This document shows positions 16,462 through 27,048 of a stretch of DNA of 64,000 nt, piece by piece. Source of the stretch: Nocardia tengchongensis (GTDB lineage: Bacteria > Actinomycetota > Actinomycetes > Mycobacteriales > Mycobacteriaceae); NCBI RefSeq assembly GCF_018362975.1, contig NZ_CP074371.1:62001-126000 (forward strand), read 5' to 3'. The translations under genes and the position numbers were made by a program. The first letter of the stretch is position 1. Each line of letters begins with the position of its first letter. The notes under the pieces are model-generated. The model was not told the DNA's origin. It searched no databases and saw only the letters and a program-made list of their open reading frames with translations.

Positions 16462-17280
16462 TCAGATGGTGAAGGCGAGAGTACGGACCAGGCGGTTGCC
16501 GAGGTCGATGTCACCGGCGAGGGAGATCTCCCCCGCGTGCGCGTCCGCGGTGGTGCGGCCTCCGCGTAAGCGGGCGAACAGGCCGGAGTCCATGGTCACC
16601 ACGGTCGTGGCCGGCCCGTCCAGGGTCCCGACCAGGCTCGCCCGCCCGACTACGACCGCCACATGCAGGGTCTGCGGCACCGGGCCGGTCAGCTCGAAGG
16701 TGATGCGCGAACCGTCCGGCGCGCCCGCGCCTTTCACCGCGGCCCGGCCGAGTGCGGTCAGCAGTTCGGTGTAGGCGACCGCGCCGCGGCTGCCGCCCTC
16801 CTCGACCGCCACGCCCAGGGCGTCGGCGATGTCGTGCTCGTGCATCCAGCAGTCGAACAGGCGGATGCGCATGAACCGGCCGTAGGGCGCCATGCCCACC
16901 GGCGTCGGGACGAATCCGCCCCACGTCTCGTCGGTGGTCTGCTCGAGCGCCTTCACCCGGCGACCGGTGACGTCGAGGAAGCGGTCCAGCAGTTGCGCGC
17001 CGGCCAGCGGGCGCAGGGACTCGATCCACTTCTCGTTCAGCGTGCCGATCTCGTTGCGGATGTGCGCCCCGGACACCTCGGCATCCGGGGTCGGCTCGCC
17101 CAGCAGCATCGATTCGGTCCCGATCATGTGGGCCATGACGTCGAAGACCGTCCAGCCGGGCAGCGGCGAAGGCGTGCGCCATCGGTTTTCGTCCAGCCCG
17201 TCCACCAGCCGGGTGAGAGCGTCCCACTGGTCGGATAAAAGGGCCGTGATCTCGGCGCGGTCCGGCACCGTGTCGGTCAT
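16462..17280 (-). CDS. Maleylpyruvate isomerase/DinB-like mycothiol-dependent enzyme family protein
   Basis: The 272-residue protein fits the actinobacterial TIGR03083/MDMPI family. Its N-terminal DinB-like four-helix bundle carries metal-binding His residues (GWTVFDVMAHMIGTE around 43-57 and RLFDCWMHEHDIADAL around 140-155). A C-terminal MDMPI_C domain follows (ITFELTGPVPQTLHV). Such proteins are thought to use mycothiol, which fits an actinobacterium; the reaction is unknown. ATG 17280 overlaps the HIT gene stop (ATGA), so the two are translationally coupled. Confidence 0.7.
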   Translation of the reverse strand: MTDTVPDRAEITALLSDQWDALTRLVDGLDENRWRTPSPLPGWTVFDVMAHMIGTESMLLGEPTPDAEVSGAHIRNEIGTLNEKWIESLRPLAGAQLLDRFLDVTGRRVKALEQTTDETWGGFVPTPVGMAPYGRFMRIRLFDCWMHEHDIADALGVAVEEGGSRGAVAYTELLTALGRAAVKGAGAPDGSRITFELTGPVPQTLHVAVVVGRASLVGTLDGPATTVVTMDSGLFARLRGGRTTADAHAGEISLAGDIDLGNRLVRTLAFTI

Positions 17281-17726
17281 GCGGTGGTCTCCCTCTCCTC
17301 GTCGGCGAGCCGGTCCAGCCCGGCTCGCAGTGCCGCGGCGGTGCGCTCGGTGTCGTGCGGACGGCGCAGCACGAACCCCTTCGCGAAACGCAGGGTGTCG
17401 CCGTGATGGCGGGGAATCACGTGCAGGTGCACGTGATGAACAGTCTGGAAGGCGGCCTTGCCGTCGTTGATCAGCAGGTTCGCGCCGTCGGCCGTGAGGC
17501 CCGCGCGGCGCATGGATTTGGCCAGGCGGTGACCGAAGCCGAACAGGCGAGCACCCGTCTCCGGGTCGAGTTCGTCGAGATCGGTCGCGTGCCGCTTGGG
17601 GATCACCAGGGTGTGTCCCCGGGTGATGGGCCGGATGTCGAGGAAGGCCACCAGGTGGTCGTCCTCGAAGATCTTGGTCGCGGGTGCGTCGCCCGCGACG
17701 ATCCGGCAGAAAGTGCAGCCACTCAC
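17277..17726 (-). CDS. HIT-family nucleotide hydrolase
   Basis: The 149-residue protein has the histidine-triad motif HHVHLHVIPRH (97-107), whose central His attacks the alpha-phosphate of AMP-linked nucleotides. An N-terminal CxxC-containing segment CTFCRIVAGDAPATKIFEDD is typical of bacterial HIT proteins. Substrates could be ADP-ribose or AMP-linked compounds. GTG 17726 is chosen to give this canonical N-terminus. It is the first gene of a leftward operon with the isomerase-like and peptidase E genes. Confidence 0.85.
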   Translation of the reverse strand: MSGCTFCRIVAGDAPATKIFEDDHLVAFLDIRPITRGHTLVIPKRHATDLDELDPETGARLFGFGHRLAKSMRRAGLTADGANLLINDGKAAFQTVHHVHLHVIPRHHGDTLRFAKGFVLRRPHDTERTAAALRAGLDRLADEERETTA

Positions 17727-17952
17727 ACCGCAGACATTACGGCGTACAGGTGATGTGCGACACCCCCTACACGACCCCGGAAGGGGCACAACCGAACCCA
17801 AAACTACTGACCGGTAGCTCCCGGAATTCGCTCGTGCTCGAGGTCACCGGAACCCCGGCCGAGCACGGAGTTGTCCGGTTTTCTCGCCACACCATGTGAT
17901 GGGCATCTCCGCTACGCTCACCGCGGACCAGGTACAGTTGCGAGAATTCTCA

Positions 17953-17976
17953 CGAACTTACTGCACAGTAAGTTCG
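17953..17976. promoter_or_regulatory. Perfect 24-bp palindrome upstream of pntAA
   Basis: The arms CGAACTTACTG and CAGTAAGTTCG are perfect 11-bp inverted repeats around a central CA. They lie 75 bases before pntAA, within the 324-base space 17727-18050 that otherwise holds no gene. Length and symmetry fit a TetR-type operator. No regulator gene is adjacent on this side. This is the most regular palindrome in the window. Confidence 0.65.
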
Positions 17977-18050
17977 GACCACCGTTGGACGGTGAAACGG
18001 CCGAAACCGACAGGGTGGCCTGGACTCACCACGAGAAGGAAGTTTGACAA

Positions 18051-19169
18051 GTGGACACAACGCAGAGCGCACAGACCGCTGCGCCCCGCGGTGCGCGCGT
18101 CGGAGTGGTTCGCGAGACGAACCCGGACGAACGACGCGTCGCATTGGTGCCGAAGATCATTCCGGCCCTGCTGAAGCAGGGTGTCGAGGTGATCGTCGAG
18201 GCCGGTGCCGGTCTGGGCGCGTTGATCCCGGACGAGGCGTACACCGAAGCCGGTGCGACGCTGGGCGATCCGTACAGCGCCGACGTCGTCGTGAAGGTCG
18301 CCCCGCCCAATGACGCCGAGATCGCCAAGATGACGTCCGGGCAGACCCTCATCGGGTTCCTCGCGCCCCGCAACGCCGACACCAAGATCGGCGCGCTCAA
18401 GGACGCGGGCATTCAGGCCTTCGCGGTGGAGGCGATCCCGCGCATCTCCCGCGCTCAGGTCATGGACGCGCTGTCCTCGCAGGCGAATGTCGCCGGCTAC
18501 AAGGCCGTGCTGCTCGCCGCGTCGGAATCCACCCGATTCTTCCCCATGCTGACCACCGCCGCGGGCACCGTGAAGCCCGCGACCGTGCTGGTTCTCGGCG
18601 TGGGTGTGGCCGGACTCCAGGCTTTGGCCACCGCCAAGCGCCTCGGCGGCCGCACCACCGGTTACGACGTTCGCCCGGAGGTCGCCGATCAGGTGCGCTC
18701 CGTGGGTGCGCAGTGGCTGGACCTCGGCATCGACGCCGCCGGTGAGGGCGGGTACGCCCGCGAACTCACCGAGGACGAGAAGGCCCAGCAGCAGCAGGCC
18801 CTGGAGAACGCCATCAAGGGGTTCGACGTGGTCATCACCACCGCGCTGGTGCCCGGCCGCCCAGCCCCGCGCCTGGTCACCGCCGCCGCCGTCGAGGGCA
18901 TGAAGCCCGGCAGCGTGATCGTGGACCTGGCCGGTGAGACCGGCGGTAACTGCGAGCTGACCGAGCCCGGCAAAACCGTTGTGCGCCATGGCGTCACCAT
19001 CGCCTCGCCGCTGAACCTGCCGGCCACCATGCCGGAGCACGCCAGCGAGCTGTACTCCAAGAACATTTCCGCCTTGCTCGAACTCATGCTGAAAGACGGT
19101 GCCCTGGCACCCGATTTCGAGGATCAGGTGCTGGCGGACTCCTGCGTCACGCGTGAGGTGGAAGCCTGA
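18051..19169 (+). CDS. pntAA: Proton-translocating NAD(P) transhydrogenase, alpha subunit part 1
   Basis: The 372-residue protein is the NAD(H)-binding domain I of the membrane transhydrogenase. It starts VGVVRETNPDERRVALVPK, as in alanine dehydrogenase/PntA, and has the dinucleotide fold VLVLGVGVAGLQALATAKRL (about 184-203) followed by TTGYDVRPEVADQV. The enzyme uses the proton gradient to make NADPH from NADH. As in mycobacteria, the alpha subunit is split into PntAA and PntAB. GTG 18051 has an AGAAGGAAG site upstream. The stop overlaps the pntAB start by 1 base (TGATG). Confidence 0.9.
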   Translation: MDTTQSAQTAAPRGARVGVVRETNPDERRVALVPKIIPALLKQGVEVIVEAGAGLGALIPDEAYTEAGATLGDPYSADVVVKVAPPNDAEIAKMTSGQTLIGFLAPRNADTKIGALKDAGIQAFAVEAIPRISRAQVMDALSSQANVAGYKAVLLAASESTRFFPMLTTAAGTVKPATVLVLGVGVAGLQALATAKRLGGRTTGYDVRPEVADQVRSVGAQWLDLGIDAAGEGGYARELTEDEKAQQQQALENAIKGFDVVITTALVPGRPAPRLVTAAAVEGMKPGSVIVDLAGETGGNCELTEPGKTVVRHGVTIASPLNLPATMPEHASELYSKNISALLELMLKDGALAPDFEDQVLADSCVTREVEA

Positions 19170-19486
19170 TGTACACCGAATTGTTGGCGAACATCGCGAT
19201 CCTGGTGCTGTCCGGGTTCGTCGGTTTCGCCGTGATCTCCAAGGTGCCCAACACCTTGCACACCCCGCTCATGTCGGGCACCAACGCCATCCACGGCATC
19301 GTCGTCCTCGGCGCGCTGGTCGTGTTCGGCAAGGTGCAGCACCCCTCGGTGCTGATGCAGATCATCCTGTTCGTGGCCGTCGTGTTCGGAACCTTGAACG
19401 TCATCGGCGGTTTCGTCGTGACCGACCGCATGCTGGGCATGTTCAAGGCCAAGAAGCCTGCCGCGCAAGAGAAGGCGGGCGAGTAA
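19169..19486 (+). CDS. pntAB: NAD(P) transhydrogenase, alpha subunit part 2 (membrane)
   Basis: The 105-residue membrane protein has three hydrophobic spans. It contains the family segments FVGFAVISKVPNTLHTPLMS and GTNAIHGIVVLGALVV, which form part of the proton channel. The short charged C-terminus reads KAKKPAAQEKAGE. It joins PntAA and PntB in the complete enzyme. It sits between the two with a 1-base overlap upstream and a 4-base gap downstream. Confidence 0.9.
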   Translation: MYTELLANIAILVLSGFVGFAVISKVPNTLHTPLMSGTNAIHGIVVLGALVVFGKVQHPSVLMQIILFVAVVFGTLNVIGGFVVTDRMLGMFKAKKPAAQEKAGE

Positions 19487-19490
19487 CCCC

Positions 19491-20906
19491 ATGGACAACC
19501 TGGTCAATATTCTCTACATCGCCGCGTTCGCGCTGTTCATCTACGGTCTGATGGGCCTCACCGGCCCGAAGACCGCGGTGCGCGGCAACCTGATCGCGGC
19601 GGTCGGTATGGCGATCGCGGTCATCGCGACGCTCATCTCGATCCGCGACACCAACAACTGGATCCTGATCGTGGCCGGTCTGGTCGTCGGCATCGGCCTG
19701 GGTGTGCCGCCCGCGCGGTTTACCAAGATGACCGCCATGCCGCAGCTGGTCGCCGCCTTCAACGGCGTCGGCGGTGGCACCGTCGCGCTCATCGCGTGGG
19801 CCGAATTCCTCGACACCAAGGGCTTTTCCAATGTGCACGAGAGCCCCTCGGTGCACATCGTGATCGGCTCGCTGTTCGCGGCCATCATCGGCTCGGTCTC
19901 GTTCTGGGGCTCGATCATCGCCTTCGCCAAGCTGCAGGAGCTGCTGTCGGGTCGCCCGATCAGCGTCGGCCGTTTGCAGCAGCCGCTGAACCTGCTGCTG
20001 CTCGCGGGCGCCATCGCCGCGGCCGTGGTGATCGGCATCGGCGCCACCAATGACGGTGTGCCGCAGTACTGGATGATCGCGCTGCTGGTGCTCGCGGGCA
20101 TCCTCGGCCTGATGGTCGTGCTGCCGATCGGCGGCGCGGACATGCCCGTGGTCATCTCGCTGCTCAACGCCCTCACCGGTCTGTCGGCCGCGGCCGCCGG
20201 TCTGGCGCTGAACAACACCGCCATGATCGTGGCGGGCATGATCGTCGGCGCGTCCGGCACCATCCTGACCAACCTGATGGCCAAGGCCATGAACCGGTCC
20301 ATCCCCGCCATCGTCGCGGGCGGATTCGGTGGCGGCGCGGCGGCTCCCGGCGCGTCCGGCTCCGGCGAGCAGAAGCAGGCCAAGGCCACCTCCGCCGCCG
20401 ACGCCGCGATCCAGATGGCCTACGCCAACCAGGTCATCGTGGTCCCCGGCTACGGCATGGCCGTCGCCCAGGCCCAGCACGCGGTCAAGGAGATGGCGGC
20501 GCTGCTCGAGGCCAAGGGCGTCGAGGTCAAGTACGCCATCCACCCGGTCGCCGGTCGCATGCCCGGCCACATGAACGTGCTACTCGCCGAGGCCGAGGTG
20601 TCCTACGACGCCATGAAGGAAATGGACGACATCAACGGCGAATTCAGCCGCACCGATGTCGCCCTGGTCATCGGCGCCAACGACGTCACCAACCCGGCCG
20701 CCCGCGAGGACTCCACGTCCCCGATCTACGGCATGCCGGTGCTCAACGTCGACCAGGCCAAGTCGGTCATCGTGCTCAAGCGCTCGATGAACTCCGGCTT
20801 CGCCGGCATCGACAACCCGCTGTTCTACGCCGACCACACCTCCATGCTGTTCGGCGACGCCAAGAAGTCCGTCGGTGCGGTCACCGAGGAACTGAAGGCG
20901 CTGTAA
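19491..20906 (+). CDS. pntB: NAD(P) transhydrogenase, beta subunit
   Basis: The 471-residue protein has an N-terminal membrane domain of about eight or nine spans (residues 1-270). An Ala/Lys-rich linker and the soluble NADP(H)-binding domain III follow. Domain III shows VIVVPGYGMAVAQAQHAVKEM, YAIHPVAGRMPGHMNVLLAE and the RSMNSGFAGIDNPLFYADHT motif that binds NADP. It works with PntAA and PntAB in NADPH supply. A terminator lies 16 bases after the stop. Confidence 0.92.
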   Translation: MDNLVNILYIAAFALFIYGLMGLTGPKTAVRGNLIAAVGMAIAVIATLISIRDTNNWILIVAGLVVGIGLGVPPARFTKMTAMPQLVAAFNGVGGGTVALIAWAEFLDTKGFSNVHESPSVHIVIGSLFAAIIGSVSFWGSIIAFAKLQELLSGRPISVGRLQQPLNLLLLAGAIAAAVVIGIGATNDGVPQYWMIALLVLAGILGLMVVLPIGGADMPVVISLLNALTGLSAAAAGLALNNTAMIVAGMIVGASGTILTNLMAKAMNRSIPAIVAGGFGGGAAAPGASGSGEQKQAKATSAADAAIQMAYANQVIVVPGYGMAVAQAQHAVKEMAALLEAKGVEVKYAIHPVAGRMPGHMNVLLAEAEVSYDAMKEMDDINGEFSRTDVALVIGANDVTNPAAREDSTSPIYGMPVLNVDQAKSVIVLKRSMNSGFAGIDNPLFYADHTSMLFGDAKKSVGAVTEELKAL

Positions 20907-20921
20907 ACCCTGCGAACACTG

Positions 20922-20953
20922 ACGGCCCGTGCCCCGAAAGGGACACGGGCCGT
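20922..20953 (+). terminator. Terminator hairpin after pntB
   Basis: ACGGCCCGTG (20922-20931) pairs with CACGGGCCGT (20944-20953) around a 12-base loop that can itself pair through CCC and GGG. It sits between pntB and the convergent exported-protein gene and can serve pntB. The T tract is weak (TGCTGTTTC). Confidence 0.7.
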
Positions 20954-20964
20954 TGCTGTTTCAG
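20936..20964. repeat. 29-base repeat, copy 1 (other copy 22050-22078)
   Basis: The two 29-base stretches start GAAAGGGA and end TTGCTGTTTCAG, and differ at only three or so positions. Each lies at the 3' side of a member of the exported-protein family (genes at 20961 and 22083). This suggests that the gene was duplicated together with downstream sequence. Copy 1 overlaps the pntB terminator. Confidence 0.7.
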
Positions 20965-21446
20965 GATATGACGGAGATGACGTGGCAGCCGGTCGCCGAG
21001 CCAGCGAACCTTGCGCTGCCGCCCTGACTGCTTCCGGTGAAACCCGGCGAGGTGGCGGGGTCGTAATTCGCCGACATCTGGCTGGTGACCGTACCGGCGG
21101 CATCCTTCTGCGCGACAACGACGTGGAGCGGCGTATAGATGCAATCGAGCGACACCTGAATGGCGTAGACGGTGGCGCCTCCCGAGGGCGGTGTGAAGGG
21201 ATGCACCGGAGTGAAGGGACTTCCTGCGAGCGCGGTGCCGTTGAGCGTAATCCAGACCGGATTGGTGTCGCTGGTGTCGACGGTGATGACGGTCTGCGAA
21301 CACGGGTCGAACGCTTCACCGTGCAGGCAAGCGACCCGGGTGTCGGTGATGTCGGCGGAAGCATGCCCTGCCCCCTGCGTGAGAGCGACCGCCGCGACGG
21401 CGGCCACAACTCCGATACCCTTGCACACCAATAATTTCGAACTCAT
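20961..21446 (-). CDS. Exported protein of unknown function, tandem family member 1
   Basis: The 161-residue protein has a Sec signal peptide ending HASA before DITDTRV (cleavage near residue 31/32). The mature part has four Cys: ACLHGEAFDPC gives the first pair, then LDCIYTPLHVV and the C-terminal GCHVIS. Family-wide blocks are DTNPVWITLNG, GSPFTP, LDC-x-YTPLHV and QKDAAGTVTSQMSANY. ATG 21446 has a GAAGGAGC ribosome-binding site. No known domain is recognised; a small disulfide-bonded beta fold is plausible. The two neighbours to the right are paralogues on the same strand. Confidence 0.75.
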   Translation of the reverse strand: MSSKLLVCKGIGVVAAVAAVALTQGAGHASADITDTRVACLHGEAFDPCSQTVITVDTSDTNPVWITLNGTALAGSPFTPVHPFTPPSGGATVYAIQVSLDCIYTPLHVVVAQKDAAGTVTSQMSANYDPATSPGFTGSSQGGSARFAGSATGCHVISVIS

Positions 21447-21489
21447 TCAAGCTCCTTCAGCAATTCACAAGATTTCGGGTGTTCACATT

Positions 21490-21981
21490 TCAGAGCACGT
21501 ACCGGATGTGACAGCCCTGGTCGGCCTGGGCAGCGCCGTTTCCGCTGCCGGTCGTCATGTTGTTCAGCGCCGCGCTGCCCGACGCGGGGGCGGGGGCGGG
21601 GGTGTAATCGGCCGACATCTGGCTGGTGATCGCCCCGGCCGCGTTCTTCTGCGCGGCGACGACATGGAGCGGCGTGTTGACGCAGTCGAGCGCGATAACG
21701 ACGCTGTAGTACGTGACGCCCGCCGCGGTCGCGTAAGGTCCCTTCGGCGTGATGGGCCCGCCGGTCAGGACGGTGCCGTTGAGGGTGACCCACACCGGAT
21801 TCGCATCCGTGATAGCGATAGTGATTTCCGAGATGGGAACCGGGACCTCCTCACCGTGTGGCTGCGTCACAGTGGTCGCGGTGATATCGGCGGCAGCGGG
21901 GCCCACCCCCTGGGTGAGAGCGAGGGCCGCGACGGCGGTCAGGACACCGAGCCCCGTGCGGGCCAATGGTTTCAGACTCAT
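21490..21981 (-). CDS. Exported protein of unknown function, tandem family member 2
   Basis: The 163-residue paralogue of the flanking genes has a signal peptide ending PAAA before DITATTV. It shares DANPVWVTLNG, GGPITP, LDCVNTPLHVV, QKNAAGAITSQMSADY and the C-terminal GCHIRYVL. Unlike members 1 and 3 it lacks both Cys of the N-terminal pair, having TQPHGEEVPVPIS there. That fits those two Cys forming one disulfide and the remaining two another. The ribosome-binding site is weak. The function is unknown. Confidence 0.75.
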   Translation of the reverse strand: MSLKPLARTGLGVLTAVAALALTQGVGPAAADITATTVTQPHGEEVPVPISEITIAITDANPVWVTLNGTVLTGGPITPKGPYATAAGVTYYSVVIALDCVNTPLHVVAAQKNAAGAITSQMSADYTPAPAPASGSAALNNMTTGSGNGAAQADQGCHIRYVL

Positions 21982-22049
21982 GCCAGGTGGATCTTTCTGT
22001 TTTGACGCGTCAGCGAACGCTGGTCCTAGGACGTGACAACCCAGGTGCT

Positions 22050-22078
22050 GAAAGGGAACCGGGCCATTGCTGTTTCAG
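22050..22078. repeat. 29-base repeat, copy 2 (other copy 20936-20964)
   Basis: Near-identical to 20936-20964. It lies 5 bases beyond the stop of family member 3, between members 2 and 3. Its hairpin potential is reduced compared with copy 1. Confidence 0.65.
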
Positions 22079-22082
22079 CGAA

Positions 22083-22679
22083 CTAGGAGTGGGAGACGAC
22101 GTGACAGGGCTGGGCGGCGGCACTGCCGAGATCGCCGGCCTTGGTGAGGCCGGTACCGCTGCCGGAGAGCAGACCGGAGAGCGTGGGACCCACGCTGCCG
22201 GTGGTGCCGCTGCCATTGTTGACGCCGCCGATCAGGGCTCCGGCGGCACTGCCCATCAAGAGGTTCCCCAGCATCAGGCCGCCTGCCGAGGGCGCCGCGT
22301 AATCGGCGGACATCTGGCTGGTGATCGCACCCGCCGAGTTCTTCTGCACGGCAATGACGTGGAGTGGGGTGTAGACGCAATCGAGCCGAACCCCGACCTC
22401 GTAGATCTTCGCGCCGGTCGCGCTGACAGCCGGAGTCGGCGTGTAGGGGCTGCCGTCGAGGGCGCTGCCGTTGACCGTGACCCACACCGGATTCGTATCG
22501 GTGGTTTCGACGACGATGCTCGCTCCGGTGCACGGGCCGATCATGTCGCCACCGCCCGGGCAGTTGGCGGTGGCCGAGGTGATGTCGGCAGCGGCGGGTG
22601 CCGCTCCCAGCGCGAGGACGCCCGCGGACACCGCGGTCGGGACGCCGAGTCCCTTGCGGGCCAGTGGTTTCAAGCTCAT
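22083..22679 (-). CDS. Exported protein of unknown function, tandem family member 3
   Basis: The 198-residue protein is the longest of the three. Its signal peptide ends PAAA before DITSATA. The first Cys pair is in NCPGGGDMIGPC, followed by DTNPVWVTVNG, GSPYTP, LDCVYTPLHVI, QKNSAGAITSQMSADY and C-terminal PCHVVSHS. A Gly/Ser/Ala-rich insertion of about 60 residues (GGLMLGNLLMGSAAGALIGG onwards) separates the core from the last Cys. ATG 22679 (MSLKPLARKG) matches the starts of its paralogues. The function is unknown. Confidence 0.75.
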   Translation of the reverse strand: MSLKPLARKGLGVPTAVSAGVLALGAAPAAADITSATANCPGGGDMIGPCTGASIVVETTDTNPVWVTVNGSALDGSPYTPTPAVSATGAKIYEVGVRLDCVYTPLHVIAVQKNSAGAITSQMSADYAAPSAGGLMLGNLLMGSAAGALIGGVNNGSGTTGSVGPTLSGLLSGSGTGLTKAGDLGSAAAQPCHVVSHS

Positions 22680-22750
22680 CCACGACACCCTAAACACAAG
22701 GTCCTTGATGTGAAGCGAACTTACTTCACCAATTCTGGGGTATTGACGCG

Positions 22751-23458
22751 TCAGCGGGAGAGCAGTTCGGAGACCGTGACGAAGCGGTAGCCCTGGGCTT
22801 GCAGGGCCTTGGCGATCAAGGGGATCGCGGCCAGGGACGGGTCTCCGGTCGGATACATGGTGTGCAGCAGGATGATCGAGCCGGGGTGGACCTTCGCGAG
22901 GGTCTCGGTGACGATCTGGTCGATGGTGGGGGTCTTGCCGGAGTCCGGCTCCACGTCCCAGGTGACGGTGGTGCGGTCATGGCGGGAGAGGTACCACGGG
23001 AGGGCGAAGAGCTTTTTGCCGTTGGGCGGGCGGAAGGTGATCGGGCCGCGGTAGCCGGTTTTCGCGATTTCGGCGTCGGTGCGTTCCACCTCGTCGCGGA
23101 CGAAACCGGGGGTCACGAAGACCATGCGTTCGTGGTGGTAGGTGTGGTTGCCGATCTCGTTGCCGGACTCGGCGATGGCGCGGCCCTGGTCGGGGTGGGC
23201 GGCCAGTTCGCTGCCGATGAGATAGAAGGTCGCCGGGACGGCCGCGTCGGCGAGGGCTTTCAGGATCGCCGGGGTGCGGGCGGTGGGGCCGTCGTCGAGG
23301 GTGAGGGCGACGAGCTTGTCGGTGGTGTCGACGCGGGACACCAGTCGGCCCGCCACCTGGTAGGTGCACGAATTCATCAGCGCGTACAGCCCGACCGAGG
23401 TCAGGACCAGCACCACCAGCGTGAGCGCTCCGGTGATGTACAGCCTCCGTTTCATCAC
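22751..23458 (-). CDS. Membrane-anchored polysaccharide deacetylase (CE4/NodB)
   Basis: The 235-residue protein has an N-terminal signal anchor (residues 7-28) and a NodB homology domain with all five motifs. These are TLDDGP (53-58, catalytic and metal Asp), GNHTYHHE (103-110, metal His), RPPNGKK, a DVEPDSGK segment, and ILLHTMY with the catalytic His. It should deacetylate N-acetyl sugars in the cell envelope, for example peptidoglycan or a surface glycan. ATG codons at 23458 and 23455 are both possible. It is divergent from the TetR gene at 23518. Confidence 0.85.
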   Translation of the reverse strand: MMKRRLYITGALTLVVLVLTSVGLYALMNSCTYQVAGRLVSRVDTTDKLVALTLDDGPTARTPAILKALADAAVPATFYLIGSELAAHPDQGRAIAESGNEIGNHTYHHERMVFVTPGFVRDEVERTDAEIAKTGYRGPITFRPPNGKKLFALPWYLSRHDRTTVTWDVEPDSGKTPTIDQIVTETLAKVHPGSIILLHTMYPTGDPSLAAIPLIAKALQAQGYRFVTVSELLSR

Positions 23459-23481
23459 GCGAGGCTACCCCGAAACAGTTA

Positions 23482-23498
23482 TTGACCCAGAGGTTCAA
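23482..23498. promoter_or_regulatory. Operator-like site upstream of TetR gene
   Basis: TTGACCC and GGTTCAA flank a 3-base centre as a near-perfect inverted repeat, 20 bases before the TetR start. A matching site (24137-24152) precedes the SDR gene, which makes this the probable TetR operator. Confidence 0.6.
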
Positions 23499-23517
23499 AA
23501 CGCATACCGTTGACCCC

Positions 23518-24093
23518 ATGGGCAGGCCACGCAACTTCGACGCGGACACGGTGGTGGACCGCGCCATGGACGCGTTCTGGACCCATGGATACGCCAACAC
23601 CTCACCCGCACAGCTCGCCGAGGCGACCGGGGTCGGAAAAGGCAGTCTCTACAACACCTTCGGAAGCAAGCGGGAGCTGTTCGATCTGTGCATGACCCGC
23701 TACGACCGGATGGGAACGGACCTGGCCAACGAGGTCCTGTCCCAGCCCGGCACCGCTAAGGAACGACTGCGGGCCTGGATGCGACTGGTCGTGGACAGCG
23801 ATCTGGCGCGGCCGGTGCGGCGCGGATGCCTGGTGGCCAATACCGCCATGGAACTCGGCGGGCACGATCCGGCGGCGACCACCGCCGTGACCGTGGCGGT
23901 CGAGCACATGATCGAGGCCTTCACGGCACGCATCCAGCAAGGGCAACGCGACGGTGACGTCCGCGCCGACGTCGACGCCCGGGCCTACAGCGAGTTCCTG
24001 ATGAATACCGTTGGCGGACTGCGCATCACCACGAAGGTATCGGACGCGGAGACGCTGTACCGGATCATCGACACCGCCTTGTCCACCCTCTAA
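23518..24093 (+). CDS. TetR-family transcriptional regulator
   Basis: The 191-residue protein has an N-terminal HTH AMDAFWTHGYANTSPAQLAE then TGVGKGSLYNTFGSKRELFD, the pattern of the TetR group that controls SDR and oxidoreductase genes. The C-terminal domain contains VRRGCLVANTAMELGGHDPA, typical of TetR_C_16/AcrR-like members. ATG 23518 is preferred over an upstream in-frame ATG-like start at 23482, because that one lies inside the operator. It is followed 73 bases later by an SDR gene with the same site in its promoter. Confidence 0.85.
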   Translation: MGRPRNFDADTVVDRAMDAFWTHGYANTSPAQLAEATGVGKGSLYNTFGSKRELFDLCMTRYDRMGTDLANEVLSQPGTAKERLRAWMRLVVDSDLARPVRRGCLVANTAMELGGHDPAATTAVTVAVEHMIEAFTARIQQGQRDGDVRADVDARAYSEFLMNTVGGLRITTKVSDAETLYRIIDTALSTL

Positions 24094-24136
24094 TTCCACG
24101 GGCCGCGACCTGCGGCCCATTCTTTTACCCCAGTTT

Positions 24137-24152
24137 TTGACCCACAGTTCAA
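24137..24152. promoter_or_regulatory. Operator-like site upstream of SDR gene
   Basis: TTGACCCACAGTTCAA shares 15 of its 16 bases, allowing one gap, with the site before the TetR gene at 23482-23498. It lies 14 bases upstream of the SDR start. The TTGACC could also serve as a -35 box. Confidence 0.6.
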
Positions 24153-24166
24153 GAAAGGTACGGATC

Positions 24167-24954
24167 ATGGATCTCGGACTGAACGGCAAGACCGCACTCG
24201 TCACCGGCGCCAGCCGGGGCATCGGGCTCGCCGTCACCGAAGCCCTCGCCGATGAGGGGGTGCGGGTCGTCGGCGTCGCCCGGACCATCACCCCGGAGCC
24301 GAAAAGGTTGCGGCGAAGACGATTTCCGCGGACCTCAGCACCAGCGAGGGCGCGCTGGCCGCGGTCGAGGCCGCCCTGGCCGAGCTCGGCGGGATCGACA
24401 TCCTCGTCAACAATGTGGGTGGCGGCGACGCGGACAAATTCAACCTGGGCAACTTCCTCGACATCTCCGACGACCAGTGGCGGAAGCTGTTCGACCTCAA
24501 CCTGTTCGGCGTCGTCACCACCACCCGCGCGGCCCTGCCCAGCCTCATCGAGCGACGCGGCGCGATCATCACGGTCTCCTCGATCAACTCCCGGCTGCCC
24601 GCGGCCGGGCCGTCGGGCTACAGCGAGGCCAAGGCCGCGCTCTCCGCGTTCGGCAAGCGGCTCAGCGAGCAATACGGCCCCCAGGGCGTGCGGGTGAACA
24701 CCGTGTCCCCGGGACCGGTCGGCACCGATATCTGGCGGGGTCCCGAGCACATCGGCGCGATGCTCGCGGCGGCCAACGGGCTTCCGCAGGAACAGTTCCT
24801 CGCGGCCCTTCCGGGGCAGTTCAATATCGCAGCCGGCCGCATCGCCGAAGCGACGGAGGTGGCGGCGCTGATCACCTTCCTGGCCTCCGAGCGAGCCACC
24901 ATCATCAACGGCGCCGACTACGTCATCGACGGCGGCATCATCAAGACCGTCTGA
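24167..24954 (+). CDS. Short-chain dehydrogenase/reductase, interrupted by a frameshift
   Basis: Frame one encodes MDLGLNGKTALVTGASRGIG (cofactor loop TGASRGIG, 13-20) up to ARTITPE. The -1 frame then continues EKVAAKTISADLSTSEG, DILVNNVGGGDADKF, the active-site SSINSRLPAAGPSGYSEAKA (Ser, YxxxK) and the C-terminal INGADYVIDGGIIKTV. One base missing near 24299 (GAGCC followed by GAAAAG) explains the break. The repaired protein is about 262 residues, the usual SDR length. It is probably controlled by the TetR gene just upstream. The substrate is unknown. Confidence 0.8.
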
Positions 24955-25275
24955 TCAGAGGTACAGGCCGGTGCCGTGTTCGGGGTGGGTGTTGGCGACG
25001 GCGTGCAGATCACGTTCGCGCAGTACGTAATACGCCTGCGCCTGAATCTCCACCTCGAACTGGTCATCGGCGCTGAACAACACCTGATCGCCGACGCTCA
25101 CCGCGCGGACGTGGGAACCGACGCCGCACACCTCACCCCACGACAGGCGCTTGGCGACCTGGGCGGTGGCGGGAATCAGGATGCCGCCACTGCTGCGCCG
25201 CTCGCCCGCCTCGGGGCTGAGTTTGACCATCACGCGGTCGTGCAGCATTTGGATTTCGAGCTTGGCATCGGACAC
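24955..25275 (-). CDS. GroES-like co-chaperone domain protein
   Basis: The 106-residue protein has the Cpn10 pattern LHDRVMVKLSPEAGERRSSG (mobile-loop region), GGILIPATAQVAKRLSWGEV, VGDQVLFSADDQFEVEIQAQ and YYVLRERDLHAV. It stands alone without a groEL neighbour and is more divergent than a housekeeping GroES. It could be a dedicated co-chaperone or a beta-barrel protein with another role. GTG 25275 is chosen. It abuts the convergent SDR stop with no gap. Confidence 0.75.
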   Translation of the reverse strand: MSDAKLEIQMLHDRVMVKLSPEAGERRSSGGILIPATAQVAKRLSWGEVCGVGSHVRAVSVGDQVLFSADDQFEVEIQAQAYYVLRERDLHAVANTHPEHGTGLYL

Positions 25276-25345
25276 GGCGGCAGTGTACTGCCCGGGTATG
25301 TCCGGTTCCGCCCCGGCGTCCGCACGACCGCGTAGGTTTCGGACT

Positions 25346-26711
<1,366 letters not shown>

Positions 26712-26757
26712 CCGCGCCACCGGAACAATCCGCATCACAAGGGAGTTCACACAGGTC

Positions 26758-27048
26758 ATGAGCACCAAGCTGGAACACAATGCCGACGCGACCCGCTACG
26801 AGATCTACCTGGACGGCACTCTCGCGGGCTACGCCGACTACGCGGAGCGCGTCGACGGCGACGCCAAGGTCCGCGACATCCAGCACACCATGACCTTTCC
26901 CGAGTTCCGGGGCCGCGGCGTGGCCGCGCAGGTGGTGGAGTACGCGTTGAACGACGCCCGCGCCGAAGGCTTCTCGATCATCCCCACCTGCTGGTATGTG
27001 GAGAAGTACATCGGCGAGCACCCCGAATACGCCGATCTGGTGGCCTGA
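26758..27048 (+). CDS. Small GNAT-like acetyltransferase (YidJ/Gcn5-type)
   Basis: The 96-residue protein matches the short GNAT family (PF14542-like): YEIYLDGTLAGYADYAER, TMTFPEFRGRGVAAQVVEYA with the acetyl-CoA pyrophosphate loop RGRGVA, and FSIIPTCWYVEKYIGEHPEY. These minimal acetyltransferases act on small molecules or the N-termini of proteins; the substrate is unknown. The start is ATG 26758, with AGGGAG about 17 bases upstream and ACAGGT nearer. It follows the FAD oxidase by 46 bases. Confidence 0.8.
   Translation: MSTKLEHNADATRYEIYLDGTLAGYADYAERVDGDAKVRDIQHTMTFPEFRGRGVAAQVVEYALNDARAEGFSIIPTCWYVEKYIGEHPEYADLVA

Follow-up and report, generated by a model that had tools for sequence, protein, structure and literature searches.

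Neocarzinostatin-type apoproteins and MPT63 are small secreted proteins of actinobacteria with a single-domain immunoglobulin (Ig)-like fold, and both families have Pfam models. Another described group of Ig-like sandwiches is the Big_3_5 domain (PF16640). We describe an array of three genes, P0003, P0002, and P0001, in a 64,000-nucleotide stretch of Nocardia tengchongensis (hereafter the window; the host genome is a single contig of 8.0 Mb). With a probability of about 0.6, and judging from sequence, their products are secreted or envelope-bound binding domains of the Ig type that form a branch related to Big_3_5 and were diversified by duplication. The homology, the predicted fold, the array, and the conservation of tail and cysteines come from computation, and the export route, the disulfides, the location, and the binding role are inferred. 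In Nocardia cyriacigeorgica GUH-2, proteins of unknown function make up 70% of the inferred secretome, according to the available part of PMC3751702. A family with about 40 copies in the host genome, a single probable fold, and a conserved tail reduces part of such a secretome to one question that can be tested: which partners the Ig surfaces have, and whether a tail serine carries a lipid or not.

The three genes are complete open reading frames (ORFs) on the minus strand, separated by 101 bp (P0003-P0002) and 43 bp (P0002-P0001), and their products are 52-57% identical in pairwise comparison. The initial annotation had described adjacent paralogues with signal peptides, mature proteins starting with Asp-Ile-Thr (DIT), shared blocks, and a C-terminal CH, and all of these are present in P0001-P0003 by eye and with a simple script. 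The first block reads TNPVWITLNG, ANPVWVTLNG, or TNPVWVTVNG, the second LDCIYTPLHV, LDCVNTPLHV, or LDCVYTPLHV, and the third QKDAAGTVTSQMSANY, QKNAAGAITSQMSADY, or QKNSAGAITSQMSADY; CH lies a few residues from the end (GCHVISVIS, GCHIRYVL, PCHVVSHS). Each N-terminus has the parts of a Sec signal: it begins with positive charge, continues into a hydrophobic core, and carries an A-x-A-like site ahead of DIT, which makes export probable. All three mature proteins are predicted to begin with Asp-Ile-Thr, without the Cys at +1 of a lipoprotein. Duplication followed by divergence, also proposed at the outset, agrees with a search of the whole genome, in which P0002 finds its two neighbours at E values of 4.9e-40 and 4.9e-39 (52% and 57% identity) and the next matches stand at 0.04 and 1.6. 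The array is further supported as a product of duplication by DNA repeats of 124, 113, and 82 nucleotides (nt) within it, each present in three copies.

The annotation had recognized no described domain in the trio, a statement that holds for direct searches and fails for indirect ones. At E up to 10, Pfam assigns P0001-P0003 to no family, Big_3_5 included (cut-off 35.5 bits), and NCBIfam gives two matches of about 14.5 bits to models whose cut-offs are near 200. The best single-domain relative tested against Big_3_5 scores 34.8 bits, just under the cut-off, members of the wider family match it at E down to 2.6e-8, and multi-domain paralogues exceed the cut-off. Profiles of mature parts connect the trio, via intermediates of the same genus, to Big_3_5-like exported proteins at 98.2% and 98.1% with clean controls; the signal-peptide cut in this comparison is crude and too deep for P0003 and one relative. 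The direct mature-only comparison (A4 with A3) is weak, 5.2%, and therefore the case for homology rests on the intermediates. A value of 95.9% for the same direct comparison was set aside, since it included the signal peptides. By profile homology, the mature domain of the trio is thus related to Big_3_5 through intermediates. The array is one of several in a large Nocardia family.

AlphaFold2 models P0001 as a seven-strand sandwich that aligns with Ig and fibronectin type III (FN3) domains, in a comparison with PDB structures from whose list a family may be missing without being excluded. Sequence searches of the PDB stay at chance level (best E 0.49 and 0.21). The trio is therefore predicted to have an Ig/FN3-like beta sandwich fold. 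It is best seen as a divergent branch of a described domain group that has no Pfam or NCBIfam model of its own; it is neither a new fold nor a new kind of system. The Ig-like sandwich, predicted for P0001, is what the trio shares with Big_3_5. In contrast to that group, P0001-P0003 give no match to its model, have a single domain each, and carry extra cysteines and a Thr-Gly-Ser (T-G-S) tail. Multi-domain Big_3_5 proteins encoded in the same genome (2341515-2342423, 7752586-7753527, 7774268-7775140) have a signal peptide, an Ig-like domain above the cut-off, and Gly-Ser tails as in the trio (TGSADGILSSLGSLLGGLGAGK, GSGSASGLGNLGSLASLLGGFGSSK, STGSFGF). They differ from the trio in their length of 290-313 amino acids and in an extra N-terminal region, which in two of them gives a weak match, below cut-off, to a DUF11-type repeat.

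Based on these features, it appears that the proteins could act as follows. Each gene would give rise to a small exported protein in which one Ig-like domain is followed by a flexible Gly/Ser tail ending near a Cys. The protein would leave the cell most likely through Sec, and would fold and become oxidized outside the membrane, where a disulfide between LDC and the C-terminal CH would probably tie the tail back to the domain. The proteins may remain in or on the envelope or be released, and their variable Ig surfaces may bind partners such as envelope proteins, glycans, or another cell, with duplication supplying new binding variants. The surface or secreted contact role suggested by the initial annotation is plausible for the trio. 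A different use of the fold is that of a soluble ligand carrier, a small secreted Ig-fold protein that holds a hydrophobic molecule in the manner of the neocarzinostatin apoprotein. In size, export, Ig-like fold, and cysteine pairs, the trio is of a similar kind to neocarzinostatin-type apoproteins. However, the trio matches neither the neocarzinostatin nor the MPT63 family, or any other in Pfam, at E up to 10, and inspection by eye of the ORF list for 17000-27000 shows no recognizable biosynthetic cluster; a carrier is improbable.

The trio belongs to a family that is much larger than the array. A profile of the three sequences (A1) matches 9 of 148 genomes of the genus, the host included, one of which (G022) is matched in the C-terminal part only and does not look like a member. 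A ten-row profile matches 53 of the 148. A profile of 11 distant members, built with their signal peptides and without the window sequences, finds 41 places in the host genome at E up to 0.1, with P0001 at E 0.0013; across the order it matches at least 11 of 298 genomes and at least 4 of 76 genera at E up to 1e-4, with 13 candidates scored per genome. A 30-row profile finds 46 places in the host at E up to 0.001, and 17, 21, 5, 6, 1, 4, 8, and 4 in eight other near-complete Nocardia genomes, a lead of the host that is inflated by the 13 of 30 rows taken from its own genome. In a named collection, all 40 loci found as relatives with the distant profile A3 belong to Nocardia. The first row of this profile, taken from a genome of the window's own genus (L039, G075), is 100% identical to a protein of Nocardia coubleae (L128), so that the genus of the window is Nocardia. 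The three-row profile gave 25 pattern matches in the named genomes, none of which was confirmed, and a tblastn search with P0003 found no match in plasmids and phages. No description of the family was found in the open-licence literature of PubMed Central (PMC).

In the host, 42 ORFs match a family model (local set), 18 of them in the six arrays of Table 1. P0004, which is similar in plan to a gene at genome 710485, scores E 2.6e-16 with a profile that includes P0004 itself, and has no Pfam or NCBIfam match at E up to 0.01. Most members of the family are exported proteins with a single Ig domain, and tandem duplication accounts for part of its expansion in Nocardia. In the four-gene array at 1965450-1968706 (L221), three genes have long Thr/Pro-rich stretches of differing length after the domain, and the copy at 1966716 changes to another reading frame within this stretch. 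At genome 5967846-5969331 (L216, 846-2331), a three-repeat Big_3_5 protein stops early and an Ig piece with a TGSGTGS tail lies in another frame; the break is a frameshift or a sequence error.

So many copies could also be fast-turnover duplicates of little function that are kept by chance. The synonymous divergence (dS) between the trio copies is 0.65-0.87, and the ratio of nonsynonymous to synonymous divergence (dN/dS) is 0.43-0.59 for whole genes and 0.41-0.61 for the domain only, the latter a high value for bacterial genes. This favors low function, as do the close homologues in just nine of the 148 genomes. On the other side, none of the three reading frames is broken, dN/dS stays below 1, and many paralogues retain the cysteines, the core of the domain, and the tail. 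Little-used duplicates are an unlikely explanation. The trio genes change fast, yet are under purifying selection.

The most unusual feature of the family is a conserved T-G-S tail, which is absent from the initial annotation. Tail and cysteines were counted in 67 members, some of them closely related and hence not independent: 39 from the host (the 42 ORFs minus four doubtful frames, 1559932, 1966716, 6958024, and 5969077, plus P0004) and 28 relatives that remained after removal of eleven host-genome duplicates. TGS occurs within the last 60 residues of 51 of the 67 (mean of 300 shuffles 7.3, maximum 15), a count that is partly circular, as the search profiles contained tail columns and the members are related; the five other orders of T, G, and S occur in 0 to 14 members. 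In a less biased set, in which the profile match ends before the tail, [TS]GS was seen by eye in 9 of 12 members (seven TGS, two SGS). In 464 kb of the host genome, a crude caller, which overlooked P0001 at the least, gave 343 genes. The looser [TS]GS falls within the last 40 residues of three of these, each a family member, and in none of the 340 others. Of 44 Big_3_5 proteins taken from other families within the order and class, two have the exact TGS (L249, L253) and nine the looser motif. These 44 derive from 59 loci, of which 52 reach the 3' end, minus seven that are apparently in the wrong frame (L263, L266, L269, L271, L285, L295, L300) and minus the host's own L247, in which the motif is present. 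In several members a short hydrophobic run follows TGS (SIPVIGGLLKSLGL, SGGLLSTLLNALLPTL).

One possible role for such a tail is purely structural, in that a Gly-Ser run allows the chain to return so that the last Cys bonds to the domain. In line with this, the mature part has an even number of cysteines in 62 of the 67 members, and in L039 and L047 the domain Cys and the tail Cys are missing together. P0002 does not have the two N-terminal cysteines found in its siblings and retains LDC and the C-terminal Cys, which suggests the disulfide pairs C40-C49 and C102-C154 (P0001 numbering). A structural tail is also what one would expect from its confinement to the family in the sampled gene calls. 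However, TGS is retained in cysteine-free members (L039, L047, and host 1965450, 1966035, and 2421919), and an 87-residue paralogue at 2422491-2422754 (L219) has a signal peptide, a Pro/Thr linker, and a Gly-Ser tail without any Ig domain. We give limited credence to a tail that serves folding only.

Nocardia are mycolic-acid bacteria, and the tail could have another role in their envelope: its serines could be O-mycoloylated by a mycoloyltransferase of the Ag85/Cmt type, which would anchor the Ig domain in the mycomembrane. O-mycoloylated envelope proteins are described in Corynebacterium glutamicum (PorA, PorH, ProtX, PorB, Cmt1), and the available parts of PMC11066868 and PMC5310785 place the mapped sites on Ser, less often Thr, amid Gly, Ala, and Ser in flexible stretches, some of them near the C-terminus. 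In ProtX, for example, the modified residue is the penultimate one, and in PorB the modification lies in disordered terminal regions. Those parts state no strict motif, that of PMC11927696 adds nothing further on one, and PMC11066868 mentions closely related Nocardia orthologues of Cmt1. The family tail resembles these stretches in composition and position, and no sequence relation is claimed. The frequency of TGS in the 67 members, its presence in the less biased set, and its absence from the 340 other genes all favor this role, and the TGSS of P0001 lies in a segment (136-150) modelled at a predicted local distance difference test (pLDDT) score below 50. The host genome also has 29 places matching PF00756, the esterase/mycoloyltransferase-type family, seven of them consecutive at 1470304-1478504.

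Two family loci of the host lie 0.8 and 2.1 kb from PF00756 genes. Of 85 family clusters in nine near-complete genomes, however, three are found no more than 3 kb from a cluster of the PF00756 matches listed, where 1.4 are expected (p 0.16); for the same matches, p is 0.51, 0.15, 0.20, and 0.46 within 1, 5, 8, and 12 kb. The test used 106 of 112 family matches, with contig sizes other than the host's approximated, and left out four matches at E 5.9e-5 or weaker outside the known members, the out-of-frame 5969110, and the partial 7182830 (E 2.1e-7). Nine of the 40 named Nocardia loci (L128-L135, L138) have, about 0.1-1 kb away on the other strand, a gene that shares 66-70% identity with the PF00756 protein at genome 5596709. 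This adjacency is not counted as support, as the nine apparently form one orthologous group. No report of O-mycoloylation in Nocardia was found in the open-licence PMC literature. We regard mycoloylated tail serines as doubtful. A shade more doubtful, because proximity to PF00756 is not significant over the nine genomes, is the broader proposal by analogy that the genus uses the tail as a signal for covalent anchoring, with dozens of mycoloylated Ig proteins giving a diversified Ig display on the mycomembrane. If true, this would give protein O-mycoloylation a first recognizable signature in sequence and extend the modification beyond Corynebacterium, as far as the available parts of the sources go. 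The tail is in any event a concrete candidate for a modification for which those parts of PMC11066868 and PMC5310785 know no strict sequence rule.

Table 1. Genes and DNA elements at the array, and family arrays in the host genome. Positions are those of the window unless marked as genome.
Feature	Position	Strand	Description
P0003	22083-22679	minus	first gene of the array, complete ORF, 198 amino acids (an upstream GTG would add 6); putative signal peptide at about residues 1-31, Ig-like domain, long Gly/Ser-rich tail, Cys-His close to the C-terminus
P0002	21490-21981	minus	second gene, complete ORF, 163 amino acids; plan as P0003
P0001	20961-21446	minus	third gene, complete ORF, 161 amino acids; plan as P0003
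P0004	27693-28232	plus	another member of the wider family, the fourth within the window, 179 amino acids, tail TGTGSSTLSPSGGLLSTLLNALLPTLSSGQ
pntB-like gene	19491-20906	plus	convergent with P0001; named by eye
Hairpin, 14 pairs (one G-U)	20922-20953		in the gap where P0001 and pntB converge; -34 kcal/mol, z -5.95
45-nt copy (78%) of 20920-20964	22034-22078		downstream of P0003; fold no better than shuffles, z -0.15
17-nt direct repeat with palindrome TGACGCGTCA	21999-22015		upstream of P0002
Second copy of 17-nt repeat (94%)	22740-22756		3' end of deacetylase-like gene, upstream of P0003
Polysaccharide-deacetylase-like gene	22751-23458	minus	71 bp upstream of P0003; named by eye
Family array	82961-84679 (genome)		three genes (the window trio)
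Family array	1965450-1968706 (genome)		four genes
Family array	3713976-3717738 (genome)		three genes
Family array	3887243-3889099 (genome)		four genes
Family array	6815254-6816312 (genome)		two genes
Family array	2421919-2422754 (genome)		two genes

The deacetylase-like gene is possibly co-transcribed with the array. As a partner it was rejected: no family gene or pntB lies within the 1.5-kb flanks of the matches of 11 relatives (L066-L076), and no deacetylase match surrounds eight family stretches of other genomes (L114-L121). A promoter scan of the locus found none, and a terminator scan found two terminator-like sites, on the opposite strand and inside genes, where 1.1 are expected. The hairpin between the convergent ends is probably a terminator shared by P0001 and pntB.

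In a tree, P0001 and P0002 group together (support 91/91), without a firm place for P0003, and a separate clade (100/99) holds the pairs from two other genomes. This suggests that the trio and these pairs arose by separate duplications, of which the tree is no proof. At the array itself, the copy of the hairpin region downstream of P0003 is probably a scar of tandem duplication, and the 17-nt repeat may mark an edge of the unit that was duplicated. The 14-nt core of its palindrome occurs twice in the window, both times exactly, where 1.3 occurrences are expected at up to two mismatches. Together, the 45-nt copy and the repeats at 21999 and 22740 indicate local tandem duplication.
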